Part shown: piece by piece, positions 9,748 to 57,537 of the stretch
Position numbering within the stretch: position 1 is the first letter of the stretch
How the letters are laid out: each line of letters begins with the position of its first letter
Source: Protonemura montana
Lineage: Eukaryota > Arthropoda > Insecta > Plecoptera > Nemouridae
Assembly: GCA_947568835.1 (NCBI GenBank)
Contig: OX387610.1
Location: 1,986,501-2,050,500 of the forward strand
DNA length: 64,000 bases
Reading direction: 5' to 3'
Notes under the pieces: model-generated
Told to the model about the DNA's origin: nothing
Databases searched by the model: none
The model's input: the letters and a program-made list of their open reading frames with translations, nothing else
Program-made: the position numbers and the translations under genes

Positions 9748-10440
9748 CCGAAGGACGGTACAACTCGAACAGGATTCCTCTACAAATCCATGCTGTCGAG
9801 AGGTTGATAAGCAAGGCAAGTAAAGTTGATGTACTAACTTTCATCCCTCCAACCTCTCTCCCGAACAGAACTGGTCATGTGTATGATGGTCACCCGTCCA
9901 ATACCTGACTCAGCGCAGTGTTGCTTAACTTTCATCCCTCCAACCTCTCTCCCGAACAGAACTAGTCATGTGTATGATGGTCACCCATCCAATACCTGAT
10001 CCAGCGCAGTGTTGCTTAACTTTCATCCCTCCAACCTCTCTCCCAAACAGAACTGGTCATGTGTATGATGGTCACCCATCCAATACCTGACTCAGCGCAG
10101 CGTTGCTTAACTTTCATCGCTCCAACCTCTCTCCCGAACAGAACTGATCATGTGTATGATGGTCACGCATCCAATACCTGACCCAGCGTAGTGTTGCTGA
10201 ACTTTCATCCCTCCAACCTCTCTCCCGAACAGAACTGGTCATGTGTATGATAGCCACCCATCCAATACGTGACCCAGTGCAGTGTTGCTTAACTTCCATC
10301 CCTCCAACCTCTCTCCCGAACAGAACTGGTCATGTGTATGATGGTCACCCAACCAATACCTGACCCAGCGCAGTGTTGCTTAACTTCGGTGATCTCACGA
10401 GGACCGGTGTTTCCAACACGCCAAACCGTTCGGTTCATTT
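9748..10440 (-). repeat. 5S-derived SINE with six promoter-segment units, tail-truncated
   Basis: The body part (CCGAAGGACGGTACAAC) and one 36-bp segment are followed by six 91-bp units, each the complement of GTTAAGCAACACTGCGC…GGATGGGTGACC. The 5S start follows (AAACACCGGTCCTCGTGAGA, complement). The (GAT)n tail is missing. It sits between the two yellow terminal exons. Confidence 0.85.
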
Positions 10441-11317
10441 CAACTACGATGATCCGCTTAGTTTGATATAAAATGTATGTTCCTTGTTTTTCAAAATGGA
10501 TAACTGAAGAGGGAAAGACGTTTATGGAGGCATATTTTAAGTTACTAAAGAAAAACAAATAGGACTTATTTTGAAAACTATTCGAAGATAGAAAAAATGA
10601 TGCAATTTTTACTGAGTTTAGTTGTTGGGGATGAAGAATAAGCTTGGTCCATTAGATACACGCGGTCATCTTCCTGACAACAGTGGCGTTTTGATTGATT
10701 AGAATCGGAAAGCTAACAAATCAAGTAGATACCAAGGTCAGACGGAAACATACTTGCAGCTAGAATGATCGGTAAGCAATGTCGAATGATTTCCATCTAC
10801 AATGTACGCAATAATAATACAAGCCATCGTCAAATATATTCTCGATGCCTAGCATATACCTACTTATGAAGAATCATTTGAACTGAAAAAAAAAACTCAA
10901 TAGGTCTTGGGAAATACATGTGACGCACTTTCTTTAATATGAATCATCTTATGCGACCATTTTCCTGGAATTCAAGCAACATTTTCTAGTCCAACAGACA
11001 ATTGAAACATTCAAATTTAGACAACAACAACAATGAAACGCAAAAACAAGGTTAAAAACGCAAAAATAACCAACATAAATTATTAGATTGTAAAAAAAAA
11101 ATATAACTGACAGGGTCCCCCGTACCAAATTAAATAAACCCTCGACAAGGTGAGCTACAAAAAACATTCTGATAGAACATACACACAAACTAACAAGCAA
11201 GAAAAAAAACACAAAACACAAATGGTTTAAAGCAGGGCTACGCAGACACACAAACACAAAGCAGAAGACACAAAAAAAGAGGTAAAATAATCGCACAAAA
11301 ATTCATGAAAACTGAAA
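10441..11317. other. AT-rich DNA between the two yellow terminal exons
   Basis: No recognisable coding sequence is present. It should include the 3' UTR of the proximal terminal exon. A 115-codon minus-strand ORF (10949–11296) is made of low-complexity Phe/Cys/Val codons from a CA-rich tract and is not believed. Confidence 0.4.
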
Positions 11318-14300
11318 TCACGCGCAATTGCTATTACCCACCAGGCTGGAAACAGAAGCTTTCAAAATCCTAAAGTTAGTTTGAGTCAGAGTATTCATAG
11401 ACCCATCGATGTACTTCCCCAAACTATTGCTCAGCACAATAATCTCTTCGTCACCCTGGTTGTTAACCACGGCTTTCAGCGACGATACAAACTGCAACTG
11501 TACATCGTCGCTATCAGCCACATAACTGGCAGCTCCCAAATACGATGTCGGCCCGGATATTTTACTGCATTGCAAATTCGCGGCGGGCAAATCGCTCCAA
11601 AACAGAATTCCAGTCGAGGTCATGACCATGCCAGCGCTCTGTCCTCGGCGCACGTTCTGGTAGGTATAGAACTGACGCATAACCTTGTTACCGCCGTGGT
11701 GATAGTGGGTTTCATTCTGTAGATGTGAGGTCAAAACGTAGTGTGCTGTGTTACCAGCTAGACTGTGGTAATAGAGAGTGCGATCGCGGTTTTCGGTGTA
11801 CGGCGACAGTGCGAGGCCGAGAATTCCGTCCATAAGGTCGAAATTAGATCCTGGAACAGATCAGGAAGGTCACACAGGGTGTAGGGTGGGATGTGTGGAT
11901 TGGTGTTTTGAAGGAAAGAGCCGAAGAAATTGAGACCGAGGTTATGTGGAAGAAATTGTTAGTTCCATTAGATCATAAGTTATTGTGTTGATCTTCTGAA
12001 AATCTGAGAAGAAAATGTTTAGTAATTTAAAGCATTAAACTCATAGGCATAGACAGAGGACCAGCGCTTATGTAAAAAAGCTTTACAGCGACAAAAATGT
12101 AGGATGCCGCCAGGTGGAGCCACCGTCGTTTCGAGTGTTAAGAAATTTCATTTCGTTATTTCTCGCAGATTACTCGCATTTGAGTCTGGTTTACACTCAA
12201 TTAATTTGTATTAATGCTAACCTCAACGATTGATAAACATGTATCCCGATATTTTGAGTTGTAATTATTTAATTGTAGAGGTTTATTAAAAACCTCCGAC
12301 GGCTGCAAGCGCCATCGGGTAGCACCTACTGTTACCACGTATTGCCGGCCTCGTTTGGTCAACAGAAAGCATAGCCCTCTGAACATATCCATATAAACTC
12401 CACGGTTAAAATATGCCTAGTTACAATCAGTTTGACATGATCTTGGTCTTCCCTACTTGGACTTGTTTTAGTTTTGTGCAAATTCGTTCGGATATCTTGT
12501 ACAGTCTGACATATTGAAGGACTCGCTCCCATTATCTACCTGGCATGTCATTACTACCAGAGACCACATTGTTGACATCTAGCCAAGGTCTCGGTAACTC
12601 TGCATTTCCTATAATGCATGAGACTTAGTTGTCAAGAGCAAGTAAACTAGACCAATAAAAATTGTCAAACTATTATCACGGCCAAATACTGTTTATCATA
12701 GAGAGAAGAGAAGAGAAGTCAAACAAATCCAGCGAAAAGATAGACCTCATGAGAAGAATGAACAAAAATTGTGTTAGTTGCGTTGGTATTTTATCGCCTG
12801 TCACCTGACAGAATCTGAAAATAAGTGACGGTGTTAATGTTTAAATTGTGGTTACATAAGAAAAGGTTTTGAAGAAGTAATGTTTTTTTTTCCACCAAGC
12901 TATGACGGAGTTTGGTGAGCACTTCTGTGAAGTCAAGGTGATGTCAATAGATCAATGGGTTAAGATCACTTCAAGGATATAATTACATAGTTGTAGCTTT
13001 AAATCACAGTAGGACAGAAAGTAATGTTCAACTCGGTAAAGAGTTTTTAGAGCACAGAGAACAGCACAACAAAGAGTCGAACCACAGACCACAACAATCC
13101 ACAGACAATCAGGACAACAGACAATCAGAACAACAGCACGTTTAGCACAATCACTAATTAGAAGCACAGAAAGATGACACAAAGAATTTATAGTCGCAAA
13201 GAATACCAGCACAATCAAGTAAATACGCGAGTACAGGAGAATAAAGTACGAAACAAACAAACAAACAAACAAACAGTCGGACCTCTTGAAGACGAGGCGA
13301 ATCATTGGTCAAGAACCCAAGCAATCAGGAAACAACCACCAGTTCGATGAACTTCCGAAATAAATCATGCAAACCTAACCTGCTCTAGCTCAAGAAAAAT
13401 ACGTCCCCAAATGTAATGACACGCTCAGACTTTTAGCTAACGAGGCGTTAGCTTATAATTAAAATACGTTTTAACTGATCATACTGGATAGATTCAACTT
13501 AAAAACAATTTGAACTATGATTTAAATTTGGGATATTAGCAAATGATTGGATATTTAATAATTATTTTGAATCGCCCCCTCAAAAATGTAAATCCTATCC
13601 GGGTATCGAACCCAGGACCCCGCCTCGTGGCATCACTCCTTGGAAATTCGTCTAGACTCATCAAACGCACTAAAATTCTCTCAAAAATGTAGCAACCAAT
13701 TTGCACAAATTATAAGTGCTGCACCCGCAACAGGTGGAGATCGGGGTTGGGCACCAATTTAAAAAACTCCAAAATCCTTACCTTGCAGCGAGAAGTAACC
13801 GAAATACGGAATCGGCCAGAAGCTGTTAGCAGTAATTCTCCACGACCTATCATTCTTGGCATCATAGACAATCAGTCCATATGTGGTCGTATCTGAGATG
13901 TAGGCAAAGGTGGACCGACACTTCAGAGTTCTGTCTCTGACGTCGACCGCGATGGTGGTGAGAATGGTATCGGGTTTGATCACCCTCTGAGGGAATCGAT
14001 GGCGACGGATGTGCTTGTCTGTGGCCAGGTCGAAGACCAGTATTTGCTTGGGACACACGTGTTTGATGCCGGTGAAGATATCAATGCTGCCGGTGTCAAG
14101 AACCCACATGCGACCGCACTCGTCAATCTGTGGGCGAGGAAGAGTATAAGTTTGCTTTTTGGTGTTTAGCGACGCACTGTTTTGACATCTGGCCATTTGG
14201 CACTGGTTTAATGGCGTCGGTGAATGAGTGGATGATGATAAGGATGATGATGAACCTAACCTAGCCTAGAGGGGAGGAGGGAAACCCCGGTGCCGGCACG

Positions 14301-17300
14301 TAGCCTACTCCAGTCGAAGATCAACTTGACCACCGGCTTAACGTCCCTTCCGAAGGACGGTACAACGCGAACAACAGGATTCCTCCACAAATCCATGCTG
14401 TCGAGAGGTTGATAAGCAAGGCGAGTGAAGTTGCTGTACTAACTTGCATCCCTCCAACCTCTCTCCCAAACATAACTGGTCATGTGTATGTTGGTCACCC
14501 ATCCAATATCTGACCCAGCTCAGTGTTGCTTAACTTCGGTGATCTCACGAGGACTGGTGTTTCCAACACGTGAAACCGTTCGGTTAAGAGGTGGTTGGCT
14601 CATAGTTTCAAGGATCGTGTCTTTCTAATTCATTGTTTGTGTGTAAAAACTATTTTCATGTGATACTGGTCTCCAGTATTCAGTGTACTATTCACACACT
14701 GTACTAACCGTATTAATCATATTAATCATACTAATCATATAACCCATATTATTCAATCATTCGGTGCTACCGATTCGAACTTCTCTATAAGTATTGCGAA
14801 AGCTAAAAATCATTCTAAATTTCATAAGTAAATTATTCACTAACGACAATACCCCACTTCGACTGGTTTCCATGTTGTCATCTACGCTGTGATTTAGTTA
14901 AAACTAGTTTAGGGTATACGTACGCGTATTCTTTTTTATTACCCCCTGCAATGTCCTTTGGGTTCAGTTCATCATTCGGTAGTGAGCTGGCATGTAGACC
15001 AGTCAAGTGGAATACTGAACTTACAATGACATTCTGTTCTATTGTAAGCATTCAGTTATTTGTGTTTTTTAAATATTTTATCGTATAAAACAGTGAATAT
15101 AAAGTGCATCTCCTTTGAAAAGAAATTGATCTTCATCGGCTGGTTCTGTCTCAATGCAATGTAACTTTGCGTTCAACATTTGCAAGGTAAGTTTTTAACC
15201 TGTTCACAATTTAGTTTTGATTATTTTGGCTTAATTCGTTTAAATACTCACAGGACATGTAATTAATTGCAAGGAATCCAAATTGATGTTATTATTGGCC
15301 AGAAATACCGATGTATTTTGATCTTTATACTAAAGTTTACTAACTTGTCAATATAAGCTGAGTGTAGGATGTAGGTTATTTGCCAAGTGTGAGAGACCTT
15401 TGGCGGCGGCAACAACTCTGTGGTTGGATCTTTAATAACGCCTACATCAGTTTTCTTTTAATTTCTTCTTCGTCGGTACGTTTTGTTACTTTTATGTAAG
15501 CATAATAACTGCGTTCTAAATATGGTTTAAGACAATTTAATTTGTGAACTCCCAAAGATAAGATCGGTCGAACTTTTGAGGGATCCATCGATCGAACGGT
15601 TTGTCGTGTTGGAAACACCGGTCCTCGTGAGATCACCGAAGCTAAGTAACACTGCGCTGAGTCAGGTATTGGATGGGTGACCATCATACACATGACCAGT
15701 TCTGTTCGGGAGAGAGGTTGGAGGGATGAAAGTTAAGCAACACTGCGCTGGATCAGGTATTGGATGGGTGACCATCATACACATGACCAGTTCTGTTCGG
15801 GAGAGAGGTTGGAGGGATGAAAGTTAAGCAACACTGCGCTAGATCAGATATTGGATGGGTGACCATCATACACATGACCAGTTCTGTTCGGGAGAGAGGG
15901 TGGAGGGATGAAAGTTAAGCAACACTGCGCTTGATCAGGTATTGGATGAGTGACCATCATACACATGACCAGTTCTATTTGGGAGAGAGGTTGGAGGGAT
16001 GAAAGTTAAGCAACACTGCGCTGGATCAGATATTGGATGGGTGACCATCATACACATGACCAGTTCTGTCCGGGAGAGAGGTTGAAGGGATGTAAATTAG
16101 TACACCAACTTCACTCGCCTTGCTTATCAATCTGTCGACGGCATGGATTTGTGGAGGAATCCTGCTGTTCGCGCTGTACCGTCATTCGGAAGAGACGTTA
16201 AGCCAGTGCACCCCTTGGTGCTGTTTGACAGGAGTAGGCTAGATTACGTGAAAAATTATCCACTCATTCACCGATGCTATTAGACCAGTGCCACAAAGCC
16301 CCGTTGTCAAAACGTCAATGATTCAACCCGACAACGCATCACTTCTTCGCATACCATACCTTTATCCTAAAGACCGACGTGAGTCCCTCACAATGTCCCG
16401 GTTTGTGCCAGCCCCAATCGGGATACGGCTCGAACAGCGGCGACAAGACGTTGCCTTGCTTCGAGACGGTCGACAGTGTGGCCGGGATGCCTTTCTTAAG
16501 ACGAGGCGTTGTGATGAAGACCCGTCCGTTGTGGATGCCGACATCAACTGGTACCGAGTTGTTGGGGATGTATAAACCTGGAACAAGAAGAAGTCAAATG
16601 AGCTCAATTCGGCAATGAGTTATGACCACGCGTGAATGTTCTTATGTCTGGTCATCTTATACTCTGAGCCGGTCAGCACTGGGATCTCTCGATAGTTTTG
16701 TCGATGTAGACATAACAACTTAATGATCTTTTCATGATTGCAATTGAACAAATGCTAGTGTAGCCATTGCAAACTCCCAGGATCGGCCACTAGCTACTAC
16801 CAGAGGCTACTACCGGAGGGTGCTACCAGAGGTCGCTTCCCTTCCATTTCCGTCTCAAATGGCGCGGTGGTGGATGCATTTTTGGAGCTAAAAAAAATCT
16901 CCCAGGATCTTCGATAGAGAATTCACCCAAATTAAGCAAAATATGCATTTTATACTGAAGTTAAGTTCCAGAGGGAAGGCAGATTTTGCCGCATACGAAT
17001 TCAAGGTATTTTTTTTTTGTGTTAATATTATGACAATGAATTTGCTCAAGATCTAAGATAGTAAACCAAAACTTAAGCGTCCACATAACCACTTTGCTTT
17101 GTGATCAAAGTATTCGCCATATAAACAAAGCGACCGATCGAAAGTAGCTACATATTTATCGTGCATAGCTTTTGAAAAACAAAAATATGGAGACAATCTT
17201 ACATTTAGATTAGGTTAGAAACATAGAAAAATATTAAGCGAATGTTGAAAACGTTATTTTTTAATGTCAATTTATATTCTTTGAATATCGAACCAGTTTC

Positions 17301-19160: not shown

Positions 19161-19560
19161 AACTGAATTGCAAACGCTTGCAATGCGCTTATATCATCTA
19201 AATCATCTAATCTTATCTGATCTGATCATCTAAATACAACGAATCCAATGTCAAATTGTAGTTACTCGAGATTGACAGGTTGTGACGTGATATAGCGTCA
19301 CTAGAATCAGAGTGACTGTGAGTATTCACAGCCTCTTGGTTCTACTCCTTGGAGATCCGTCATTCTCATCAAATACACTAAAATCGTTTCAGAAAGCAAG
19401 TGTCCAAGTAGCTCAATTGGTTAGAGAGCAACACCCTTGACAGGTGGAGATCGGGGTTTGAGCTTCAGTTTCAGCATCAATTTTTGAGATGGTTACAGCA
19501 CAGATAGACAATAGTCAATAGTCAATCTGTGGTTACAGTGTTCATAAAATAAAAAAATCC
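19161..19560 (+). repeat. tRNA-derived composite element, one head, full leader
   Basis: An inverted tail piece (ATTGCAAACGCTTGCAATGC) is followed by the leader with the hairpins GTGACG…CGTCAC and CTGTGA…TCACAG, one tRNA-like head at about 19404, and a tail broken by a short CAATAGTCAATAGTCAAT duplication. The B box is mutated (GGTTTGAGCTTC). Confidence 0.75.
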
Positions 19561-21003: not shown

Positions 21004-21075
21004 AGGACGATATCTAAAAGTTCTACTTTTTTTTGTATTGTTGTTTTATAGAAACGATAAATGAATAAATTTCAG

Positions 21076-22397
21076 TACCCTACCAACTTGCACGAGCCAC
21101 TCCTGTACCCTACCAACTTTCACGAGCCACTCCTGTACCCTACCAACTTGCACGAGCCACTCCTGTAGCCTACCAACTTGCACGAGCCACTCCTGTACCC
21201 TACCAACTTGCACGAGCCACTCCTGTACCCTACCAACTTGCACGAGCCACTCCTGTACCCTACCAGCTTGCACGAGCCACTCCTGTACCCCACCAACTTG
21301 CACGAGCCACTCCTGTACCCTACCAACTTGCACGAGCCACTCCTGTACCCCACCAACTTGCACGAGCCACTCCTGTACCCTACCAACTTGCACGAGCCAC
21401 TCCTGTACCCTACCAACTTGCACGAGCCACTCCTGTACCCTACCAACTTGCACGAGCCACTCCTGTACCCTACCAACTTGCACGAGCCACTCCTGTACCC
21501 TACCAACTTGCACGAGCCACTCCTGTACCCTGCCAACTTGCACGAGCCACTCCTGTACCCTACCAACTTGCACGAGCCACTCCTGTAGCCTACCAACTTG
21601 CACGAGCCACTCCTGTACCCTACCAACTTGCACGAGCCATTCCTGTACCCCACCAACTTGCACGAGCCACTCCTGTACCCTACCAACTTGCACGAGCCAC
21701 TCCTGTACCCTACCAACTTGCACGAGCCACTGCTGTACCCTACCAACTTGCACGAGCCACTCCTGTACCCTACCAACTTGCACGAGCCACTGCTGTACCC
21801 TACCAACTTGCACGAGCCACTGCTGTAGCCTACCAACTTGCACGAGCCACTCCTGTAGCCTACCAACTTGCACGAGCCACTCCTGTACCCTACCAACTTG
21901 CACGAGCCACTCCTGTACCCCACCAACTTGCACGAGCCACTCCTGTACCCAACCAACTTGCACGAGCCACTCCTGTACCCTACCAACTTGCACGAGCCAC
22001 TCCTGTACCCTACCAACTTGCACGAGCCACTCCTGTACCCTACCAACTTGCACGAGCCACTCCTGTACCCTACCAACTTGCACGAGCCACTCCTGTACCC
22101 TACCAACTTGCACGAGCCACTCCTGTACCCTACCAGCTTGCACGAGCCACTCCTGTATACCCTACCAACTTGCACGAGCCACTCCTGTACCCTACCAACT
22201 TGCACGAGCCACTCCTGTACCCTACCAACTTGCACGAGCCACTCCTGTACCCTACCAGCTTGCACGAGCCACTCCTGTACCCTACCAGCTTGCACGAGCC
22301 ACTCCTGTACGCCACCAACTTGCACGAGCCACTCCTGTACCCTACCAACTTGCACGAGCCACTCCTGTACCCTAACAACTTGCACGAGCCACTCCTG
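21076..22397 (-). repeat. 30-bp tandem array, about 44 copies
   Basis: The unit TACCCTACCAACTTGCACGA followed by GCCACTCCTG repeats with single-base variants (CACCAAC, TAGCC, TGCTG). A 2-bp insertion near 22157 shifts the phase, so the open frames on both strands (up to 431 codons) jump there. The ORFs reflect unit length 30. Their translations (VQVGRVQEWL or GYRSGSCKLV) match no family known to me. Confidence 0.95.
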
Positions 22398-33150: not shown

Positions 33151-33299
33151 CAAAACCTCCTCCAAGTCGCAACGCAAGTTTTTATCTACACCTTGACTCG
33201 CATGCTCGACTTATATGGAAATCATATCAATATCATTAACCAACTCGGTCACGCGAGTGAAACAAATGGAAGTCAGTAATTTCAAACCACCCTACAGCT

Positions 33300-42923: not shown

Positions 42924-43993
42924 CTAGCAGAACCCGATGCCTAACGGCACCTTAAGATATTGAGGGAGTGGGCATTTTTGTTTAAATGGGACCATAACCA
43001 ACAGTACCCCCATTTATTTTATTTGAAATTTGCCGCTTATTTCACTCGGGGTCACTGCATTGTGGAAACTCTGTGAATTCCAAAGTGACCCCGATGACAA
43101 TTTCGAAAACAAACGACGTTGGCTGTCAAAAGATTTCCGTGCATGATTTCTTGAAATATTTTCTTAGAAAGTAAAAGTTGTGAAATACCTTTTACATCTC
43201 CACCAGATCTTACTAAAAAGATGTTTAATGAACGGATACGCACTTTAAATTGACAAAATGTAAGTTTCTTCGGTAATTAAGTTGTTTGACATCTGTCAAA
43301 ATCTTTCCTTGCCAGCCAGTTTTAAATAAAATTCATGACGAAAATCCCATCAAATCACCGTATAAATGTCGCGTTGGGTCGTGCTCTGAAGTCATGTAAG
43401 ATTTAAAATTATTCCCAGCAATGTTTGACTGGTTTCTAAAAAGTATTTGATGTTCTAATCCTTTTTGACGTTTAAATATCCTGAATTCACTGCCGCAAAG
43501 ATAAGTTCAAGAATTCGTTCACCCTGCAGTGGTAAAAAAACCAAACAAATGAATGCATCTGTCAAACTTTTTTGCGAAATTATTTCTATTTCACGTAAAA
43601 CGAACGTAAATAACAGCCGTTTGGCTCAATTTCTTCAATAACTTTCATAGGCATGCATGAACAGTATTACCGAGCTGCTGCGGGTGAGTAAAAGGCAAGT
43701 TTTGAATCAAATAAAAATCGAACTGTGAGACATGGCTCCAATTTTCCTAGGCAAGAAATTTTAAACATAATTATCAATATTTCACCAAAAAAACGCTTTC
43801 AAATCACCCTTAAAGTGTCACAATAGGATAGAGATTTGAATTTTGAACAATTATAACCCAATTGCACACGTTTTTAACCAAATTTCGCAATTTAAATCAA
43901 CATGTACAGAAAAATGTTACCCCAGCTGGTCGGTCGCCAGATACAAACTAAAAAGTTGAACATCGCTAAAATAAGGCTTTTATATAAGGTTAA
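42924..43993 (+). repeat. ~1-kb repeat unit U1 (long form)
   Basis: It begins CTAGCAGAACCCGATGCCTA and ends TTTTATATAAGGTTAA. The unit includes GGGTCACTGCATTGTGGAAA and GACATGGCTCCAATTTTCCT. A short AATAAT microsatellite precedes it at about 42855. Confidence 0.88.
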
Positions 43994-46847
43994 CTAGCAG
44001 AACCCGATGCCTAACGGCACCTTAAGATTTTGAGGGAGTGGGCATTTTGATTTATATTTTACTTGACTTGAAGCATATTTTAAAAAGTTTTCGAAATTTG
44101 TCAGATGCCGTTCCAAAAGTTTTAAATAGGGCCACAACCTAAAGTGCCAAACAACACCTAACAATATTGTTAAATACCATACAATTCCATAAAATACCAT
44201 AGAATACCATAGAACTCCATAGAATACCATAGAATACCATATAACTCAATAGAATTTCATAGAATATCATAGAACTCCAAAGAATACCATAGAATACCAA
44301 ACAATATCATAGAATACCAAAGAACTCCATAGAATACCATAGAATACCATAGAATACCATAGAATACCATAGAATACTAAATAATATCATCGACTACCAT
44401 AGAACTCCATAGAATACCAAAGAATACCAAACAAAATCATAGAATACCAAAGAACTCCAAAGAATACCATAGAACTCCATAGAATACCATACAATATCAT
44501 AGAATACAAAAAAAATATCATAGAATACCCTAGAACTCACTAGAATATCATAAAATACCGAACAATGTCATAGAATACCATAGAATACCATAGAATACCA
44601 TATAATATCATAGAATACCAAAAAATATAATAGAGTACCATAGAACTCAATAGAATACCATAGAATACCATAGAATACCAAACAATATCATAGAATACCA
44701 TAGATCACCAAACAATACCATAGAATACCATAAAATACCAAACAATATCATAGAATACCATAGAACTCAATAGAATATCATAAAATACCAAACAATGCCA
44801 TAGAATACCATAGAATACCATAGAATACCATAGAATACCATAGAATACCATACAATACCATACATTACCATACAATATCATAGAATACCAAAAAATATAA
44901 TAGAGTACCATAGAACTCCATAGAATACCATAGTACACGATAGAATACCATAGAATACCATAGAATACCATAGAATATCAAACAATATCATAGAATACCA
45001 TAGAATACCATAGAATACAATAGAACTCCATAGAATACCATAGAATACCATAGAATACCATAGAATACCATACAATATCATAGAATACCAAAAAATATCA
45101 TAGAATACCATAGAACTCCATAGAATACCATAGAATACCATGGAACTCCATAGAATACCATAGAATACCATACAATATCATAGAATACCAAACAATATCA
45201 TAGAATACCATAGAACTCCATAGAATACCATAGAATACCATAGAATACCATAGAATACCATAGAATACCATAGAATACCATAAAATACCATAGAATACCA
45301 TAGAATACCAAACTATATCATAGAATACCATAGAACTCCATAGAATACCATAGAATACCTTGGAATACCATAGTTTACCATAGAATACCATAGAATACTA
45401 TAGAATACCATAGAATACCATAGAATACCATAGAATATCATAGAATACCATAGAATACCATAGAATACCATAGAACTCCATAGAATACCATAGAATACCA
45501 TAGAATAACATAGACTACCATGTAACACCATAAAGTACTATACAATATTAAACACTTCCATAGAAAACCGTATTAAACTTAGATTGCTTATTTGGATTAG
45601 ATTTGATAAAACTGCACTCCGTCATTAATGACGTTTTGAATTTAAATACCTGTTGAATAATCACGGCATCCTCGAAAATAAAATAAGTATCCACGGCGTC
45701 CTGATTCGATGAAAGATATCTGTCAAATGTTTATCTTTGATCTGTCAATGTCACTTTAAATCTAGTTTTGGCAAAATTATCAATAAAAAACTAATCAAGT
45801 GTGTTTTGTTTGTTTAAAAACCCTATTTAATGTGTAAAAGACCTGCAAAGAAAGTTAGGATTGTTATTGATTTACATATTTGTCACAAATATCATTGATG
45901 GCTTGGAATCAACTGTGTGATCTTGTCTAGGCTGGGGATGGAGAAAAATCGTCGTATTTTAAGAAATTTCTTGTCTTTCGTATACTATTTACAATAAATA
46001 TCTTTAAATATGTTTACAAAAGATTCCAATAGTTGTGTTAATAGATTGTTTAACTTTCCAAACCTTTTTGACGTGTAAATAACCTCCACAAGAATGCCAC
46101 GGGCTTGTCAAGTGGCTATTTTTCATCTTGCTAGCCAAGACACCAACAATATTTTTGATACTTTACTATAATAATGCTCTTTAAAATCACCGTGAAAAAG
46201 ACGTAGTTGGATTAAATCCTGAATAAAGAACCAAAATAAGCCAATTTCACACGTTTTTCCTTCAGTTCTAGAGATTTTGAAAAGAATTTGACATTGACGT
46301 TGACATTGACATTGACGTTTGAATATCCTGAATGCACTGCCGCAAAGATAAGTTTAAGAATTCGTTCACCCTGCAGTGGTCAAAAAACCAAACAAATGAA
46401 TGCATCTGTCAAACTTTTTGCAAAATTATTTCTATTTCACTTAAAACGAACGTAAATAACAGCGTTTGTGCTCAATTTCTTCAATAACTTTCATAGGCAT
46501 GCATAAACAGTATTACCAAACTGCTGCGGGTGAGTAAAAGGCAAGTTTTGAATGAAATAAAAATCGAACTGTGAGACATGGCTCCAATTTTCCTAGGCAG
46601 GAAATTTCAAACACAATTATCAATATTTCACCAAAAAAACGCTTTCAAATCACCCTCAAAGTGTCACAATAGGATAGAGATTTTAATTTTGAACAATTAT
46701 AACCCAATTGCACACGTTTTTAACCAAATTTCGCAATTTAAATCAACATGTACAGAAAAATGTTACCCCAGCTGGTCAGCTGGTCAGCTGGTCAGATACA
46801 AACTAAAAAGTTGAACATCGCAATTTAAGGCTTTTATATTAACCTTA
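43994..46847 (+). repeat. ~1-kb repeat unit U2, split by foreign and simple sequence
   Basis: It starts with the same CTAGCAGAACCCGATGCCTA, loses homology after about 44160, where a 10-bp array occupies about 1.4 kb, and regains it from about 46130 (GCTAGCCAAGACACCAACAA) to its end at 46847. The interval 45560–46130 is unique AT-rich DNA. Confidence 0.8.
44165..45560 (-). repeat. 10-bp tandem array (CCATAGAATA), about 1.4 kb
   Basis: Decamers CCATAGAATA with variants (CCATAGAACT, CCAAACAATA, TCATAGAATA) run for about 140 copies and stay in 10-bp register for most of the length. The minus-strand ORFs it creates (MVFYGILWYSMVFYG type) are by-products. Confidence 0.93.
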
Positions 46848-47783
46848 CTAGCAGAACCCGATGCCTAACGGCACCTTAAGATTTTGAGGGATTGTGCATT
46901 TTGGTTTTAATGTAAAGCCTCTAATGGGACCACAACCAAAAGTACCCCCATTTATTTTATTTGAAATTTGCCGCTTCTGTCACTCGGGGTCACTGCATTG
47001 TGGAAACTCTGTGAATTCCAAAGTGACCACGATGACAATTTCGAAAACAAACGATGTTAGCTGTCAAAAGATTTCCGTGTATGATTTCTTGAAATATTTC
47101 TTAGAGAGTGAAACTTGTGAAATACCTTTTAGAATCTGGGCTAGCCAATCTTGCTAGCCAAGACACCAACAATATATCAGTTTTGTCATTTATTTCCCTT
47201 CAGTTTTAGAGATATTGAAAAGAATTTGACATTGACGTTGACATTGACATTGACGTTTGAATATCCTGAATGCACTGCCGCAAAGATAAGTTGAAGAATT
47301 CGTTCACCCTGCAGTGGTCAAAAAACCAAACAAATGAATGCATCTGTCAAACTTTTTGCAAAATTATTTCTATTTCACTTAAAACGAACGTAAATAACAG
47401 CGTTTGTGCTCAATTTCTTCAATAACTTTCATAGGCATGCATAAACAGTATTACCAAACTGCTGCAGGTCATTTAAAGGCAAGTTTTGAATGAAATAAAA
47501 ATCGAACTGTGAGACATGGCTCCAATTTTCCTAGGCAGGAAATTTCAAACACAATTATCAATATTTCACCAAAAAAACGCTTTCAAATCACCCTCAAAGT
47601 GTCACAATAGGATAGAGATTTTAATTTTGAACAATTATAACCCAATTGCACACGTTTTTAACCAAATTTCGCAATTTAAATCAACATGTACAGAAAAATG
47701 TTACCCCAGCTGGTCAGCTGGTCAGCTGGTCAGATACAAACTAAAAAGTTGAACATCGCAATTTAAGGCTTTTATATAAGGTT
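46848..47783 (+). repeat. ~1-kb repeat unit U3 (short form), left arm of a palindrome
   Basis: The short form contains TTGACATTGACGTTGACATT and lacks about 150 bp found in the long form. It ends at the orientation switch. Its 78-codon ORF (47516–47752, MAPIFLGRKFQTQLSIF) is identical in U2, U3 and U4, which reflects repeat identity. Confidence 0.88.
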
Positions 47784-48715
47784 AATATAAAAGCTTTAAA
47801 ATGGCGATGTTCAACTTTTTAGTTTGTATCTGACCAGCTGACCAGCTGACCAGCTGGGGTAACATTTTTCTGTACATGTTGATTTAAATTGCGAAATTTG
47901 GTTAAAAACGTGTGCAATTGGGTTATAATTGTTCAAAATTAAAATCTCTATCCTATTGTGACACTTTGAGGGTGATTTGAAAGCGTTTTTTTGGTGAAAT
48001 ATTGATAATTGTGTTTGAAATTTCCTGCCTAGGAAAATTGGAGCCATGTCTCACAGTTCGATTTTTATTTCATTCAAAACTTGCCTTTTACTCACCCGCA
48101 GCAGCTCGGTAATACTCTTCATGCATGCCTATGAAATTTATTGAAGAAATTGAGCACAAACGCTGTTATTTACGTTCGCTTTAAGTGAAATAGAAATAAT
48201 TTTGCAAAAAGTTTGACAGATGCATTCATTTGTTTGGTTTTTTGACCACTGCAGGGTGAACGAATTCTTAAACTTATCTTTGCGGCAGTGCATTCAGGAT
48301 ATTCAAACGTCAATGTCAATGTCAACGTCAATGTCAAATTCTTTTCAATATCTCTAAAACTGAAGGGAAATAAATGACAAAACTGATATATTGTTGGTGT
48401 CTTGGCTAGCAAGATTGGTAAGCCCAGATTCTAAAAGGTATTTCACAAGTTTCACTCTCTAAGAAATATTTCAAGAAATCATACACGGAAATCTTTTGAC
48501 AGCCAACTTCGTTTGTTTTCGAAATTGTCATCGTGGTCACTTTGGAATTCACAGAGTTTCCACAATGCAGTGACCCCAAGTGAAATAAGCGGCAAATTTC
48601 AAATAAAATAAATGGGGGTACTTTTGGTTGTGGTCCCATTAGAGGCTTTACATTAAAACCAAAATGCACAATCCCTCAAAATCTTAAGGTGCCGTTAGGC
48701 ATCGGGTACTGCTAG
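47784..48715 (-). repeat. ~1-kb repeat unit U4 (short form), right arm of the palindrome
   Basis: It is the reverse complement of U3, starting at the joint and ending GTACTGCTAG. One difference at the tip is GGGTAC for GGGTTC. Together U3 and U4 form a near-perfect inverted repeat of about 0.93 kb per arm. Confidence 0.88.
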
Positions 48716-49800
48716 TTAACCTTATATAAAAGCTTTAATTTGGCGATGTTCAACTTTTTAGTTTGTATCTGGCTGACCAGCTGACCAGCTGGGGTAACAT
48801 TTTTCTGTACATGTTGATTTAAATTGCGAAATTTGGTTAAAAACGTGTGCAATTGGGTTATAATTGTTCAAAATTAAAATCTCTATCCTATTGTGACACT
48901 TTGAGGGTGATTTGAAAGCGTTTTTTTGGTGAAATATTGATAATTGTGTTTGAAATTTCCTGCCTAGGAAAATTGGAGCCATGTCTCACAGTTCGATTTT
49001 TATTTCATTCAAAACTTGCCTATTACTCACCCGCAGCAGCTCGGTAATACTGTTTATGCATGCCTATGAAAGTTATTGAAGAAATTGAGCACAAACGCTG
49101 TTATTTACGTTCGTTTTACGTGAAATAGAAATAATTTTGCAAAAAGTTTGACAGATGCATTCATTTGTTTGGTTTTTTGACCACTGCAGGGTGAACGAAT
49201 TCTTGAACTTATCTTTGGGGCAGTGAATTCAGGATATTTAAACGTCAAAAAGGATTAGAACATCAAATACTTTTTAGAAACCAGTCAAACATTGCTGGGA
49301 ATAATTTTAAATCTTACATGACTTCAGAGCACGACCCAACGCGACATTTATACGGTGATTTGATGGGATTTTCGTTTTGAATTTTATTTAAAACTGGCTG
49401 GCAAGGGAAGGTTTTGACAGTTCTCAAACAATGTCAAACAACTTAATTACCAAAGAAACTTACATTTTGTCAATTTAAGGTGCTTATCCATTCATTTAAC
49501 AGGTTTTTAGTCAGATCTGGTGGAGATGTAAAAGGTATTTCACAAGATTCACTCTCTAAGAAATATTTCACGGAAATCTTTTGACAGCCAATGTCGTTTT
49601 TTTTCGACATTGTCATCGTGGTCACTTTGGAATTCACAGAGTTTCCACAATGCAGTGACCCCGAGTGACATAAGCGGCAAATTTCAAATAAAATAAATGG
49701 GGGTACTTTTGGTTGTGGTCCCATTAGATGCTTTATATTTAAACCAAAATGCCCACTCCCTCAAAATCTTAAGGTGCCGTTAGGCATCGGGTTCTGCTAG
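48716..49800 (-). repeat. ~1-kb repeat unit U5 (long form)
   Basis: Contains the long-form segment (GAGCACGACCCAACGCGACA, TACGGTGATTTGATGGGATT) that is missing from U3, U4 and U6. Ends GGGTTCTGCTAG. Confidence 0.88.
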
Positions 49801-50732
49801 TAAGGTTAATAAAAGCTTTAATTTGGCGATGTTCAACTTTTTAGTTTGTATCTGGCTGACCAGCTGACCAGCTGGGGTAACATTTTTCTGTACATGTTGA
49901 TTTAAATTGCGAAATTTGGTTAAAAACGTGTGCAATTGGGTTATAATTGTTCAAAATTAAAATCTATATCCTATTGTGACACTTTGAGGGTGATTTGAAA
50001 GCGTTTTTTTGGTGAAATATTGATAATTATGTTTGAAATTTCCTGCCTAGGAAAATTGGAGACATGTCTCACAGTTCGATTTTTATTTCATTCAAAACTT
50101 GCCTTTTACTCACCCGCAGCAGCTCGGTAATACTGTTCATGCATGCCTATGAAAGTTAGTGAAGAAATTGAGCCCAAATGCTGTAATTAAGTTCGTTTTA
50201 CGTGAAATAGAAATGATTTTGCAAAAAGAGTGACAGATGCATTCATTTGTTTGGTTTTTTGACCACTGCAGGGTGAACGAATTCTTAAACTTATCTTTGT
50301 GGCAGTGCATTCAGGATATTAAAACGTCAATGTCAATGTCAACGTCAATGTCAAATTCTTTTCAATATCTCTAAAACTGAAGGGAAATAAATGACAGAAC
50401 TGAAATATTGTTGGTGTCTTGGCTAGCAAGATTGGTAAGCCCAGATTCTAAAAGGTATTTCACAAGTTTCACTCTCTAAAAAATATTTCAAGAAATCATA
50501 CACGGAAATCTTTTGACAGCCAACTTCGTTTGTTTTCGAAATTGTCATCGTGGTCACTTTGGAATTCACAGAGTTTCCACAATGCAGTGACCCCAAGTGA
50601 AATAAGCGGCAAATTTCAAATAAAATAAATGGGGGTACTTTTGGTTGTGGTCCCATTAGAGGCTTTACATTAAAACCAAAATGCACAATCCCTCAAAATC
50701 TTAAGGTGCCGTTAGGCATCGGGTTCTGCTAG
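49801..50732 (-). repeat. ~1-kb repeat unit U6 (short form)
   Basis: Short form with the TCAATGTCAACGTCAATGTC tract and GTCTTGGCTAGCAAGATTGG. Ends GGGTTCTGCTAG. Confidence 0.88.
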
Positions 50733-51815
50733 TTAACCTTATATAAAAGCCTTAAATCTGCGATGTTCAACTTTTTAGTTTGTATCTGGCGACCGACCAG
50801 CTGGGGTAACATTTTTCTGTACATGTTGATTTAAATTGCGAAATTTGGTTAAAAACGTGTGCAATTGGGTTATAATTGTTCAAAATTAAAATCTCTATCC
50901 TATTGTGACACTTTGAGGGTGATTTGAAAGCGTTTTTTTGGTGAAATATTGATAATTGTGTTTGAAATTTCCTGCCTAGGAAAATTGGAGCCATGTCTCA
51001 CAGTTCGATTTTTATTTCATTCAAAACTTGCCTATTACTCACCCGCAGCAGCTCGGTAATACTGTTTATGCATGCCTATGAAAGTTATTGAAGAAATTGA
51101 GCACAAACGCTGTTATTTACGTTCGTTTTAAGTGAAATAGAAATAATTTTGTAAAAAGTTTGACAGATGCATTCATTTGTTTGGTTTTTTGACCACTGCA
51201 GGGTGAACGAATTCTTAAACTTATCTTTGCGGCAGTGCATTCAGGATATTCAAACGTCAAACGGGATTAAAACGTCAAATACTTTAAGAAATCGGTTAAA
51301 CATTGCTGGAAATAATTTTAAATGTTACATGGCTTCAGAGCATGACCCAACGCGACATTTCTACGCTGATTTGATGGGATTTTCATAATACATTTTATTT
51401 CAAACTGGGTGGCAAGGAAAGATTTTGACAGTTCTCAAACAATGTCAAACAACTTAATTACCAAAGAAACCTACATTTTGTCAATTTTAAGTGCTTATCC
51501 GTTCATTAAACATGTTTTTAGTATGATCTGGTGGAGATGTAAAAGGTATTTCACAAGTTTCACTCCCTAAGAAATATTTCACGAAAATCTTTTGACAGCC
51601 AACGTCGTTTGTTTTCGAAATTGTCATCGTAGTCACTTTGGAATTCACAGAGTTTCCACAATGCAGTGACCCCGTGTGACAGAAGCGGCAAATTTGAAAT
51701 AAAATAAATGGGGGTACTTTTGGTATTGCATGGTACTTTTGGTTGTGGTCCCATTAAAACCAAAATGCCCACTCCCTCAAAATCGTAAGCGGCCGTAGGC
51801 AGCGGGTTCTGCTAG
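50733..51815 (-). repeat. ~1-kb repeat unit U7 (long form)
   Basis: Long form. Its end is more diverged than the others (GTAAGCGGCCGTAGGCAGCG), and a duplicated GGTACTTTTGGT occurs at about 51714–51740. Confidence 0.86.
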
Positions 51816-52895
51816 TTAACCTTATATAAAAGCCTTAAATCTGCGATGTTCAACTTTTTAGTTTGTATCTGGCGACCGACCAGCTGGGGTAACATTTTTC
51901 TGTACATGTTGATTTAAATTGCGAAATTTGGTTAAAAACGTGTGCAATTGGGTTATAATTGTTCAAAATTAAAATCTCTATCCTATTGTGACACTTTGAG
52001 GGTGATTTGAAAGCGTTTTTTTGGTGAAATATTGATAATTGTGTTTGAAATTTCCTGCCTAGGAAAATTGGAGCCATGTCTCACAGTTCGATTTTTATTT
52101 CATTCAAAACTTGCCTTTAAATGACCTGCAGCAGTTTGGTAATACTGTTTATGCATGCCTATGAAAGTTATTGAAGAAATTGAGCCCAAACGCTGTTATT
52201 TACGTTCGTTTTAAGTGAAATAGAAATGATTTTGCAAAAAGTTTGACAGATGCATTCATTTGTTTGGTTTTTTGACCACTGCAGGGTGAACGAATTCTTA
52301 AACTTATCTTTGCGGCAGTGCATTCAGGATATTTAAACGTCAAAAAGGATTAGAACATCAAATACTTTTTAGAAACCAGTCAAACATTGCTGGGAATAAT
52401 TTTAAATCTTACATGACTTCAGAGCACGACCCAACGCGACATTTATACGGTGATTTGATGGGATTTTCGTTATGAATTTTATTTAAAACTGGCTGGCAAG
52501 GGAAGGTTTTGACAGTTCTCAAACAATGTCAAACAACTTAATTACCGAAAAAACTTACATTTTGTCAATTTTAAGTGCTTATCAGTTCATTTAACAGGTT
52601 TTTAGCCATATCTGGTGGAGATGTAAAAGGTATTTCACAAGTTTCACTCTCTAAGAAATATTTCACGGAAATCTTTTGACAGCCAACGTCGTTTGTTTTC
52701 GAAATTGTCATCGTGGTCACTTTGGAATTCACAGAGTTTCCACAATGCAGTGACCCCAAGTGAAATAAGCGGCAAATTTCAAATAAAATAAATGGGGGTA
52801 CTTTTGGTTGTGGTCCCATTAGAGGCTTTACATTAAAACCAAAATGCACAATCCCTCAAAATCTTAAGGTGCCGTTAGGCATCGGGTTCTGCTAG
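51816..52895 (-). repeat. ~1-kb repeat unit U8 (long form), end of the block
   Basis: Long form ending GGGTTCTGCTAG at 52895, after which unique sequence (TTATTCTTTATTATCAG) begins. The U7 and U8 starts (CTTAAATCTGCGATG, GGCGACCGACCAGC) are the same as each other and differ from U4–U6. Confidence 0.88.
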
Positions 52896-53434
52896 TTATT
52901 CTTTATTATCAGTCATTCTGATAGTTGGGTTTATGGCGGTTAAGTAAAATTTCATGGCCATGACGACGACGTTTATTGGTTTTAGAATAGATTTTGTTCA
53001 GAAAAACAGTTTAAAAACTAGGATTTATACACAAAACAACAGTTACTTTTAGAACTAGGAGTTTTATCCAACGTTTTTCTGAGACTAAACGTAGCGAAAA
53101 CATGAAAATATCTGCAATAGAGAAACGACAATTTGCCTTTTTGATAGGTTAAGTCACAGTAATGTTATGTAAACAAACACAAGAATAAAAGAGAGATGAG
53201 ATGTAATATTTCTTTTAGCGTAAATATTCAACTTTATGCAATGCACGTGCAAAACAGAACCAAGATCTTTCACCCCGTGAAACAGAAAGCAAACATACGA
53301 TGTTCGTATACTTTCCGACGTCAAAAGTAACAAAATGTGTTGCATTTCAGTTTTAATTAACTCACGCACAGACGCCTTAAGCGAACATAATTCTTTTACA
53401 GCACCGCGTAGGCTCACTTAGTGTATACAGTCTA
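52896..53434. other. Intergenic spacer between the ~1-kb block and the 54-bp array
   Basis: Unique AT-rich sequence. A minus ORF of 87 codons (53154–53417) has no recognised motif. Confidence 0.35.
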
Positions 53435-55902
53435 TAGCCCGTGAGAGAAGATACCAGCACAAGGACTGTCCTTGTATTGCTACAGTCTAGCCCGTGAGAG
53501 AAGATACCAGCACAAGGACTGTCCCCTGCATTGCTACAGTCTAGCCCGTGAGAGAAGATACCAGCACAAGGACTGTCCCCTGCATTGCTACAGTCTAGCC
53601 CGTGAGAGAAGATACCAGCACAAGAACTGTCCCTGCATTGCTACAGTCTAGCCCGTGAGAGAAGATACCAGCACAAGGACTGTCCCTGCATTGCTACAGT
53701 CTAGCCCGTGAGAGAAGATACCAGCACAAGGACTGTCCTTGTATTGCTACAGTCTAGCCCGTGAGAGAAGATACCAGTACAAGGACTGTCCCCTGCATTG
53801 CTACAGTCTAGTCCGTGAGAGAAGACACCAGCACAAGGACTGTCCCCTGCATTGCTACAGTCTAGCCCGTGAGAGAAGATACCAGCACACGGACTGTCCC
53901 CTGCATTGCTACAGTCTAGCCCGTGAGAGAAGATACCAGCACAAGGACTGTCCCCTGCATTGCTACAGTCTAGCCAGTGAGAGAAGACACCAGCACAAGG
54001 ACTGTCCCCTGCATTGCTACAGTCTAGCCCGTGAGAGAAGATACCAGCACAAGGACTGTCCCCTGCATTGCTACAGTCTAGCCCGTGAGAGAAGATACCA
54101 GCACAAGGACTGTCCCTTGCGTTGCTACAGTCTAGCCACTGAGAGAAGATACCAGCACAAGGACTGTCCCCTGCATTGCTACAGTCTAGCCCGTGAGAGA
54201 AGATACCAGCACAAGGACTGTCCCCTGCATTGCTACAGTCTAGCCCGTGAGAGAAGATACCAGCACAAGGACTGTCCCCTGCATTGCTACAGTCTAGCCA
54301 GTGAGAGAAGACACCAGCACAAGGACTGTCCCCTGCATTGCTACAGTCTAGCCCGTGAGAGAAGATACCAGCACAAGGACTGTCCCCTGCATTGCTACAG
54401 TCTAGCCCGTGAGAGAAGATACCAGCACAAGGACTGTCCCCTGCATTGCTACAGTCTAGCCCGTGAGAGAAGATACCAGCACAAGGACTGTCCCCTGCAT
54501 TGCTACAGTCTAGCCTGTGAGAGAAGATACCAGCACAAGGACTGCCCCTGCATTGCTACAGTCTAGCCCGTGAGAGAAGATACCAGCACAAGGACTGTCC
54601 CCTGCATTGCTACAGTCTAGCCCGTGAGAGAAGATACCAGCACAAGGACTGTCCCCTGCATTGCTACAGTCTAGCCCGTGAGAGAAGATACCAGCACAAG
54701 GACTGTCCCCTGCATTGCTACAGTCTAGCCCGTGAGAGAAGATTCCAGCACAAGGACTGTCCCCTGCATTGCTACAGTCTAGCCCGTGAGAGAAGATACC
54801 AGCACAAGGACTGTCCCCTGCATTGCTACAGTCTAGCCTGTGAGAGAAGATACCAGCACAAGGACTGTCCCCTGCATTGCTACAGTCTAGCCCGTGAGAG
54901 AAGATACCAGCACAAGGACTGTCCTCTGCATTGCTACAGTCTAGCCCGTAAGAGAAGATACCAGCACAAGGACTGTCCTCTGCATTGCTACAGTCTAGCC
55001 CGTAAGAGAAGATACCAGCACAAGGACTGTCCCCTGCATTGCTACAGTCTAGCCCGTGAGAGAAGATACCAGCACAAGGACTGTCCCCTGCATTGCTACA
55101 GTCTAGCCCGTGAGAGAAGATACCAGCACAAGGACTGTCCCCTCCATTGCTACAGTCTAGCCTGTGAGAGAAGATACCAGCACAAGGACTGTCCTCTGCA
55201 TTGCTACAGTCTAGCCCGTGAGAGAAGATACCAGCACAAGGACTGTCCTCTGCATTGCTACAGTCTAGCTCGTGAGAGAAGATACCAGCACAAGGACTGT
55301 CCCTGCATTGCTACAGTCTAGCCCGTGAGAGAAGATACCAGCACAAGGACTGTCCCCTGCATTGCTACAGTCTAGCCCGTGAGAGAAGATACCAGCACAA
55401 GGACTGTCCCTGCATTGCTACAGTCTAGCCCGTGAGAGAAGATACCAGCACAAGGACTGTCCCCTGCATTGCTACAGTCTAGCCCGTGAGAGAAGATACC
55501 AGCACAAGGACTGTCCCCTGCATTGCTACAGTCTAGCCCGTGAGAGAAGATACCAGAACAAGGACTGTCCCCTGCATTGCTACAGTCTAGCCCGTGAGAG
55601 AAGATACCAGCACAAGGACTGTACCCTGCATTGCTACAGTCTAGCCCGTGAGAGAAGATACCAGCACAAGGACTGTCCCTGCATTGCTACAGTCTAGCCT
55701 GTGAGAGAAGATACCAGCACAATGACTGTCCCCTGCATTGCTACAGTCTAGCCAGTGAGAGAAGATACCAGCACAAGGACTATCCCTGCATTGCTACAGT
55801 CTAGCCCGTGAGAGAAGATACCAGCACAAGGACTGTCCCTGCATTGCTACAGTCTAGCCCGTGAGAGAAGATACCAGCACAAGGACTGTCCTCTGCATTG
55901 CT
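53435..55902 (+). repeat. 54-bp tandem array, locus 2, about 46 copies
   Basis: Same unit as at 28309. Copies of 54 bp (CTGTCCCCTGC) and 53 bp (CTGTCCCTGC) are interspersed. A run of uninterrupted 54-bp units gives a 275-codon frame (53739–54566). Adjacent identical variants (CGTAAGAGAAG twice near 54950 and 55000; TCCTCTGC in neighbours) point to local duplication of unit pairs. Confidence 0.95.
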
Positions 55903-55929
55903 ATAAACACACTAAAAAAATAACAGTTT

Positions 55930-56160
55930 TACTGGAAAGGAAGTGCCCAATATTGTTATTATTTCTAAAGAAAATTGATAATAGCTCGAAAACCAAAACA
56001 TCTTGGCTTGATAAAAGCTTAAAAGCAAATTGAAAATGGAGGACATCAGCGGAGATGATTTAAAAAAATGACGGTTGGTCTGCATGCCATTCTTAAACGA
56101 CCAGTGGCGCCTCTACCGGGCAAGTTTGTTCTCTCATTGAACGGAGTGTACACCCAACAT
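55930..56160 (+). repeat. Dispersed repeat D2, copy 2
   Basis: Matches 30968–31185 in the same order and orientation. It lies directly after the 54-bp array, whereas copy 1 is about 1.8 kb after the other 54-bp array. Both arrays may therefore belong to a larger duplicated segment. Confidence 0.6.
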
Positions 56161-56706
56161 TTGAACCCTTCTTTCATAATCCGACACCTAATGAAATTCA
56201 CTTCCATCTTTCTAGGAAGAGACTCTATGCAAGTGCGTCGTATGAATGTGAATCTCTTCTTGAAAAGCCCAACCCGACGGCGTTAGTTTCCTCACGTCGC
56301 CACGGCGACGTCGCAGCGCGCACGTGCCCACAGAATTTTCCACGGTGTCTAACCAGCTCGCGGGTAAATTACGTGAAACTCTGCGATGCAGAAGAAAAGC
56401 GCTAGGGGGGGAATATAATGCCTTATGTGGGATGGAAAATTGCCAGCGTGGAAAGTTCCCGGGCTTGAACATAGCTGTATGGCTGCAGATTGGTGCAGGT
56501 GGTTTATAAAGAAGATACAAGAATGGTGATCAACAGATGGTTGGCGTAGAATAGAATATGTGAATAGCAGACTCTGCATCGTACTTGCTTTGTAGAGAAA
56601 ATTACTAGTTTTTTTTCTAACAAATTACCTCATTTTGTTTCACTTTTTGTTTGTTGTTCTTTGTTCTTTTCAACCGAAATTACTTTCTGTATTTCCGAGC
56701 TCTTGT
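56161..56706. other. Intergenic with a CpG-rich patch
   Basis: About 56275–56330 is CpG-rich (ACGTCGCCACGGCGACGTCG, a near-palindrome). ORFs on both strands here (61–102 codons) have no recognised motif, and none has a convincing splice arrangement. Confidence 0.35.
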
Positions 56707-57537
56707 TCGAAGTTAAGCAACACTGCGCTGGGTCAGGTATTGGATGAGTGACCATCATACACATGACCAGTTCTGTTCGGGAGAGAGGTTGGAGGGATGA
56801 AAGTTAAGCAATACTGCGCTGGGTCAGGTATTGGATGGGTGACCATCATACACATGACCAGTTCTGTTTGGGAGAGAGGTTGGAGGGATGAAAGTTAAGC
56901 AACACTGCGCTGGGTCAGGTATTGGATGTGTGACCATCATACACATGGCCAGTTCTGTTCGGGAGAGAGGTTGGAGGGATGAAAGTTAAGTAACTTTGCG
57001 CTGGGTCAGGTATTGGATGGGTGACCATCACACACATGACCAGTTCTGTTCGGGAGAGAGGCTGGAGGGATGAAAGTTAAGCAACACTGCGCTGGGTCAG
57101 GTATTGGATGGGTGACCATCATACACATGACCAGGTCTGTTCGGGAGAGAGGTTGGAGGGATGAAAGTTAAGCAACACTGCGCTGAGTCAGGTATTGGAT
57201 GGTTGACCATCATACACATGACCAGTTCTGTTCGGGAGAGAGGTTGGAGGGATGAAAGTTAGTACAGCAACTTCACTTGCCTTGCTTATCAACCTCTCGA
57301 CAGCATGGATTTGTGGAGGAATCCTGTTGTTCGCGTTGTACCGTCCTTTGGAAGGGACGTTAAGCCGATAGTCCCCTTGGTCTTCGACAGGAGTAGGCTA
57401 TGTGCCAGCACCGGGTCTCCTCTATTCTGTTCTAGGCTAGATTATGTTCAGCATAAAACTCCCATACATTCAACGACGCCATTAGATCAGGCGCCGCATG
57501 GCCGTTGTAAAAAAAAATGCGTCGTTTAACACGAAAA
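56707..57537 (+). repeat. 5S-derived SINE with six promoter units, 5'-truncated
   Basis: It begins at the 5S box A (GAAGTTAAGCAACACTGCGC). Six 91-bp units follow, then the 36-bp segment, body and tail (GCGTCGTTTAACACGAAAAA). The first part of the 5S region is missing. Confidence 0.88.

Follow-up and report, generated by a model that had tools for sequence, protein, structure and literature searches.

Tandem 5S promoter-bearing units in a SINE of Protonemura montana: a minisatellite that probably arises after insertion, mostly in chromosome-end domains

Insect SINEs derived from 5S rRNA have been described as HaSE3 and PxSE4/PxSE5, and SINE3-1_TC is named in the same accounts (PMC3272025, PMC8010984). 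In these elements a head that resembles 5S rRNA and contains boxes A, IE and C stands on an unrelated body, and LINE-like tails are reported for HaSE3 and PxSE5; the word "tandem" does not occur in the main texts of the two papers. Minisatellites derived from other SINEs are known: in Hydromantes Hy/Pol III and Xenopus Satellite 1 (both from the tRNA-related region) and in a B1-derived repeat of the mouse, a segment of a SINE became tandem (PMC9659126). In plants the TRIM Cassandra, a retroelement with 5S sequence and a pol III promoter, forms long tandem arrays that are attributed to recombination (PMC7215508).

The SINE analysed here has the same head-on-body layout as HaSE3 and PxSE4/PxSE5, but unlike in the accounts of those elements its promoter segment is present in 1 to ~20 head-to-tail units. 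It differs from the Hydromantes, Xenopus and mouse cases in that i) the head is 5S-derived; ii) the arrays, found at hundreds of places, are internal to dispersed SINE copies; and iii) several registers of one SINE expand. Cassandra is an LTR element whose tandem unit comprises the LTR and the internal domain, whereas the unit here is internal to a SINE and 91 bp long; the copies in the window lack the order LTR-internal domain-LTR with 5S sequence in the LTRs. An initial annotation had held that reiterated TFIIIA-type promoters inside a SINE are not known to be described. Tandem repeats derived from SINEs and from Cassandra are in print, and for a 5S-derived SINE with reiterated promoter units no description was found in the open-access literature searched. 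As far as that literature shows, what is new is the 5S derivation of the head, together with the scale, the presence of several registers and the effect of position.

The window is a 64,000-nucleotide stretch of contig C13 (1,986,501-2,050,500) in a genome of 258.5 Mb and 34 contigs. Eleven contigs of 13-33 Mb total 247.6 Mb, and contig ends are treated throughout as chromosome ends, which is an assumption. A one-unit consensus, made from single-unit copies on contig C1 and trimmed to 434 bp, consists of a 48-bp head, the 91-bp unit, a body of ~200 bp and a tail with short ATC/ATAA-type repeats at its end. The 91-bp segment comprises two 5S-like stretches, boxes A and C, and a spacer. The box sequence GGATGGGTGACC with at most one mismatch occurs 32 times against 0.12 expected, and GTTAAGCAACACTG with at most two mismatches 32 times against 0.72 expected. 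At five places in the window the Rfam 5S_rRNA model (RF00001) scores 43.4-62.6 bits, above its gathering threshold of 38 bits, and at a sixth place it scores 31.6 bits, below that threshold. When the SINE was aligned to one 5S gene of the same genome (L082), the box A core GAAGTTAAGCAACA was unchanged and the box C core TTGGATGGGTGACC identical, the intermediate element was only partly kept, and outside the boxes the two were clearly unlike. The proposed 5S derivation is thus confirmed by the Rfam matches and the alignment; the further proposal that every unit holds all three promoter elements is right for box A of the GAAGTTAAGCAACA type and for box C, and less so for the intermediate element.

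A 34-mer of the SINE body, with up to two mismatches, was found at 9301 places on both strands of the genome. Exact target-site duplications of at least 7 bp flank 13 of 28 testable single-unit copies and five of 25 testable multi-unit copies, figures that have no chance control; two of the five (L057 and L076) represent one insertion. The 5S-derived 5' region and the dispersed insertion with target-site duplications mark the element as a SINE3-type retroposon, ~430 bp long and present in high copy number. The 434-bp consensus contains no TTTT, so pol III could pass through the inner units. The 5S genes themselves were found at 171 places by a DNA pattern with up to three mismatches, with tandem arrays notably at the starts of C11 (0.1-106 kb) and C15 (9-108 kb), and also on C23; their spacing is of two kinds: C11 has ~9.5-kb repeats, every one holding three matches, while on C15 and C23 the genes are ~957 bp apart.

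In the window, no copy has more than one head or body, and repetition in copies c1-c8 is confined to the 91-bp segment (Table 1). Counted from the body outward, these copies carry 6, 1, 5, 4, 4, 2, 6 and 6 units. The initial tally of eight copies with 1, 2, 4, 4, 5, 6, 6 and 6 units was reproduced by TRF, which reported six 91-bp arrays, and by the outward count, with the qualification that the 2 of the 5'-truncated c6 stands for one complete unit and ~30 nt of a second. In a ninth copy, c9, which the initial tally lacked, a 36-bp segment of the body, bounded by ACAGCA direct repeats, is repeated ~60 times.

Table 1. Copies of the 5S-derived SINE, insertions present in several places, SINE registers and other repeat families; positions are those of the window unless a locus or contig is named
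Feature	Position	Strand	Units and parts	TRF array
c1, 5S-SINE copy	9747-10434	-	head 10387-10434; 6 units 9841-10386; body ends early at 9747	9835-10386
c2, single-unit 5S-SINE	14152-14584	-	head 14537-14584; unit 14446-14536; body and tail to 14152	
c3, 5S-SINE	15591-16313	+	5 units 15639-16093; GGATC unit type in 4 of 5	15639-16099
c4, 5S-SINE	24681-25350	-	4 units 24928-25291	24922-25291
c5, 5S-SINE	29780-30278	-	4 units 29890-30252; head and body partial	29884-30250
c6, 5'-truncated 5S-SINE	32744-33153	+	~30 nt of one unit; full unit 32774-32864	
c7, 5S-SINE	41789-42673	-	6 units 42080-42625	42074-42623
c8, 5S-SINE	56708-57543	+	6 units 56710-57255; head not found	56710-57261
c9, ninth SINE copy	5190-7599	-	91-bp unit absent; 36-bp body array 5432-7596	
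Group A, L079	C1 20.98 Mb		10 units	
Group A, L080	C1 19.04 Mb		1 unit	
Group A, L105	C1 32.99 Mb		4 units	
Group A, L106	C2 0.18 Mb		3 units	
Group A, L115	C4 25.68 Mb		3 units	
Group B			13, 6 and 4 units (4-unit copy truncated)	
Group C			2, 4 and 4 units	
Group D	both arms of a single inverted repeat		3 and 5 units	
SINE, period 15	L008, L009, L078, L107			TRF
SINE, period 21	L088			TRF
SINE, period 36	window (c9)			TRF
SINE, period 90	L025		equals the 91-bp unit	TRF
SINE, period 12	L035		tail repeat	TRF
SINE, period 92	L010; L014 and L015 (overlapping); second array in L015			TRF
92-bp register	L014 2650-3032; L015 246-764, 1063-1250; L010; window 25339-25350			
tRNA-like repeat, 52-bp unit	38660-39179	+	10 units; Rfam and ARAGORN tRNA matches	
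tRNA-like repeat, further copies	768-871; 2263-2418; 13696-13745; 19402-19455; 33407-33510	33407-33510 -	2; 3; 1; 1; 2	
60-bp-unit dispersed repeat	26813-27711	-	15 units	
60-bp repeat, further copies	3359-3478; 9566-9625; 12302-12361; 58397-58996		2; 1; 1; 10	

The fate of the unit number after insertion can be read from duplicated segments, in which the same insertion was recognised by comparing flanks with the SINE masked. Four insertions were found in more than one place, and the unit number differs within all four groups (Table 1, groups A-D). Flanks are common on both sides in 12 of the 17 pairs and on one side only in five; in group A both flanks are common in all ten pairs (5' identity 91.8-99.5%), and in groups B-D in two of seven, the other five having one flank. 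L105 and L106 are one unit apart with 99.2% identical 5' flanks. In L079 the block of units 2-5 reappears as units 6-9, each pair having two private variants in common, and L047 resembles L057 minus two units; constant unit offsets are also seen in L021 and L026, and single related unit pairs in others. At least two rare variants are common to 40 of 900 unit pairs within an insertion group versus 90 of 37,326 pairs between insertions (counts made without L100-L115); among the latter, 31 of the 40 pairs listed reflect one subfamily marker. Taken together, the differences within groups A-D, the block of L079 and the case of L047 show that the unit number changes after insertion, with both gain and loss indicated. 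Variation in number at one insertion and internal block duplications, as from unequal exchange, are traits of a minisatellite or VNTR. The initial annotation had named unit-number variation at the same locus among individuals as the sign of expansion after insertion only; the variation seen here (1, 3, 3, 4 and 10 units in group A) is between duplicated segments of one assembly, rather than between individuals.

Multi-kb duplicated segments with arrays of this SINE include L079, L080, L105, L106, L115 and L075, and L047, L057 and L076. The insertion of group A also lies 0.13-0.18 Mb from ends of C1, C2 and C4, and the array-bearing segments look like dispersed subtelomeric duplications. A foldback transposon was considered for convergent SINE pairs ~3 kb apart in the interior of C1 and was rejected; the pairs are parts of larger duplicated segments. 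The open reading frames in L079 and L081 are short (123 aa at most).

The composition of the arrays bears on how they were founded. Units differ by 4.3% inside one array versus 5.3-6.4% between copies, and neighbouring units (4.6%) are no closer to each other than non-neighbours (4.2%). At unit site 22, A and G are both present in 26 of 34 arrays with at least three scored units, a tally made by hand that includes copies of one insertion. The A variant is enriched at the first unit (15 of 29 versus 47 of 187, p 0.007). The weak similarity within arrays and the mixture of A and G units show that the arrays were not each grown from one aged unit, nor are they simply fresh local duplications. This leaves two routes, sources of which some already held two or more units, or an exchange of units between loci; the mixed unit types and the weak homogenisation weigh against arrays growing solely in place from a single unit in every copy.

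Single-unit copies have the 91-bp segment bounded by exact 6-bp direct repeats, AAGTTA, spaced 91 bp apart, as had been suspected from the similar sequences around the unit of c2, which were thought able to seed expansion. The SINE consensus contains 18 direct repeats of at least 6 bp with spacings of 15-219, three of which (6 bp each) coincide in position and distance with the 91-, 36- and 15-bp units. The TRF rows that match the SINE have period 91 in 67 cases, and the other periods are given in Table 1; a fifth period-15 row (L083) was set aside, as it rests on a 14-bp match. The 36-bp and 15-bp segments reach arrays of 60 and 90 copies. In the 92-bp register, box C is fused directly to the 5' end of the SINE, and in c4 an additional partial box C segment (25339-25350) lies directly 5' of the head. 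The list of consensus direct repeats holds no 6-bp repeat of matching spacing for this register, which may therefore have a separate origin, e.g. template switching. Since the 36-, 15- and 92-bp registers also expand, tandem expansion of the SINE is not promoter-specific.

Copies on C1 were sampled by body sequence, blind to unit number, and the ends were defined as <2.1 or >30.1 Mb of 33.1 Mb, a zone set after the first 30 loci had been viewed. Outside duplicated segments, multi-unit copies make up 22 of 29 at the ends versus one of 33 in the interior (Fisher 9e-10); this comparison omits ten copies in duplicated segments (nine multi-unit, one single-unit), loci L001-L008, the window copies, copies without the 91-bp unit and the overlapping loci L016, L055, L072, L073 and L074, and L096 has no scorable copy. 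Two main body types, CA and TC, were named from body sites 72 and 79. Among CA bodies, multi-unit copies number six of nine at the ends versus none of 14 in the interior (p 8e-4); L014 was known before this test, and the ends minus L014 give five of eight. For TC bodies the numbers are 14 of 15 versus one of 11 (p 2e-5), and for the remaining bodies two of five versus none of eight (p 0.13). All remaining CA places at the ends were sampled, and for the TC interior 12 of the 29 places listed, plus four from other samplings. Non-CA copies with low unit divergence behave alike (16 of 19 versus one of 12). On C1, unit number thus follows position within both main body types.

Genome-wide, about a quarter of the sequence lies <3 Mb from a contig end. 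Within that distance are 77 of the 100 listed matches of exact G-type multi-unit copies, six of the 100 being >5 Mb from an end, and 54 of 68 exact A-type multi-unit copies. G-type single-unit copies are found there in 12 of 20 cases versus 77 of the 100 multi-unit matches listed (p 0.03), a weak contrast. An exact 87-mer of the youngest body type is present at 226 places; of 100 matches listed, 99 are on C1-C4, all at most 2.77 Mb from a contig end, and on each contig most of them share a single end (matches listed at the low/high end: C1 0/25, C2 30/0, C3 28/2, C4 1/13). Sixteen of these 100, chosen blind to units, have 0, 1, 1, 2, 3, 3, 3, 4, 4, 4, 4, 6, 6, 10, 10 and 12 units. Because this youngest body type is listed near contig ends only, the effects of age, subfamily and position cannot be fully separated. 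An overall surplus of tandem repeats near the C1 ends was considered and discarded: it was not significant at the left end (p 0.17) and almost absent from seven loci at the right end. A degenerate TTAGG-type telomere-like array lies in L014 (2073-2368), ~0.92 Mb inside C1.

The array is probably a SINE-derived minisatellite that arises after insertion, mostly in chromosome-end domains, the extra promoters being a by-product. New copies would arrive through LINE-type retroposition and mostly bear a single unit, and the 91-bp segment would afterwards be tandemly duplicated in chromosome-end domains, the AAGTTA repeat being the likely seed. The array then gains and loses units in blocks, as the number changes and the block duplication show; the molecular route would be unequal exchange or replication slippage. 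Unit types may be mixed across loci via ectopic exchange or some multi-unit sources. Other SINE segments expand alike, and neighbouring repeat families also vary in unit number. The initial annotation had the SINE itself multiply its promoter and spread in this way, a view opposed by the variation at one insertion, the expansion of the 36-, 15- and 92-bp segments and the position effect. An unlikely alternative is that one or a few active copies already had at least two 5S promoter units, which new insertions inherited and which drifted in number afterwards. Such sources would account for the mixture of A and G units in most arrays and the A-enriched first unit. Copies whose last unit is at most one mismatch from the G-type consensus are multi-unit in 566 cases versus single-unit in 20, tallies by 120-mers that serve purely as counts, since a young consensus is seldom matched by old single-unit copies. 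Exact target-site duplications lie outside the whole array in L108 (4 units), L057/L076 (one insertion, 4 units) and L081 (3 units), and in L097 (2 units) an imperfect one, judged by eye, surrounds the array. Yet interior C1 copies outside duplicated segments are almost all single-unit, copies of one insertion differ in number, and units of different insertions have at most two rare variants in common (37,326 pairs). Multi-unit sources were ranked second as the main route, on account of a position effect that holds inside body types and of the absence of common unit haplotypes. Of the two sides that the initial annotation set against each other, source and post-insertion expansion, change after insertion is upheld, and some multi-unit sources may have contributed as well (26 of 34 mixed arrays). 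A related and equally doubtful reading is a young SINE3 lineage restricted to chromosome-end domains, largely at a single end of each chromosome, whose active sources bear at least two TFIIIA-type promoters and would thus yield insertions with several promoters from the start, to be amplified further by the end domains.

Template switching during reverse transcription, building the array at insertion from one or several SINE RNAs, is quite improbable as an overall explanation. It would fit units that differ within an array almost as much as between copies, the mosaic of types, and a 92-bp register that links the SINE 5' end to an internal site; as the sole route it leaves the block-of-four duplication, the differences at one insertion and the position effect unexplained, and arrays of 60 and 90 copies of the 36- and 15-bp segments would be unexpected. 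That the units are instead ordinary tandem 5S rDNA spacer or pseudogene repeats is hardly credible, even though the 5S genes are likewise tandem at the starts of C11 and C15: the body is dispersed over 9301 places on both strands, the element has a defined head, body and tail with target-site duplications, and the 5S gene of the same genome is clearly different outside the boxes.

Post-insertion growth of the arrays offers a countable case of retroposon copies becoming minisatellites, in which hundreds begin from one sequence with a known 6-bp direct repeat, the unit number can be read at one insertion in several places, and chromosomal position seems to matter. A promoting role of chromosome-end domains in tandem duplication thereby becomes testable, as does the way in which satellites originate. 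The case also cautions against taking reiterated promoters in a mobile element as a necessary sign of selection for transcription.

Two further dispersed families in the window vary in unit number, a tRNA-like repeat and a 60-bp repeat (Table 1). Across the genome, exact unit junctions of the tRNA-like repeat number 6617; in a comparison of the positions of its arrays and single copies, 55 of 60 C1 places listed for the control pattern were also near the ends, and its exact junctions listed in the C1 interior lie at, or at most ~10 kb from, duplicated segments with arrays of the 5S-derived SINE. Tandem repeats of period at least 7 make up 19.8% of the window outside the SINE, among them 54-bp units at 28308-29214 (17 copies) and 53426-55903 (46 copies), a 30-bp unit at 21075-22397 (44 copies) and a 10-bp unit at 44173-45547 (137 copies). 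Dense nested inverted repeats occupy 43569-52343, and a pair of 944-bp arms (46821-47764 and 47799-48742), 34 nt apart, is 97% complementary. Matches to the major royal jelly protein/yellow family (Pfam PF03022) lie at 8674-9354, 11318-11860 and 13759-14265 (- strand), the third of which adjoins SINE copy c2.
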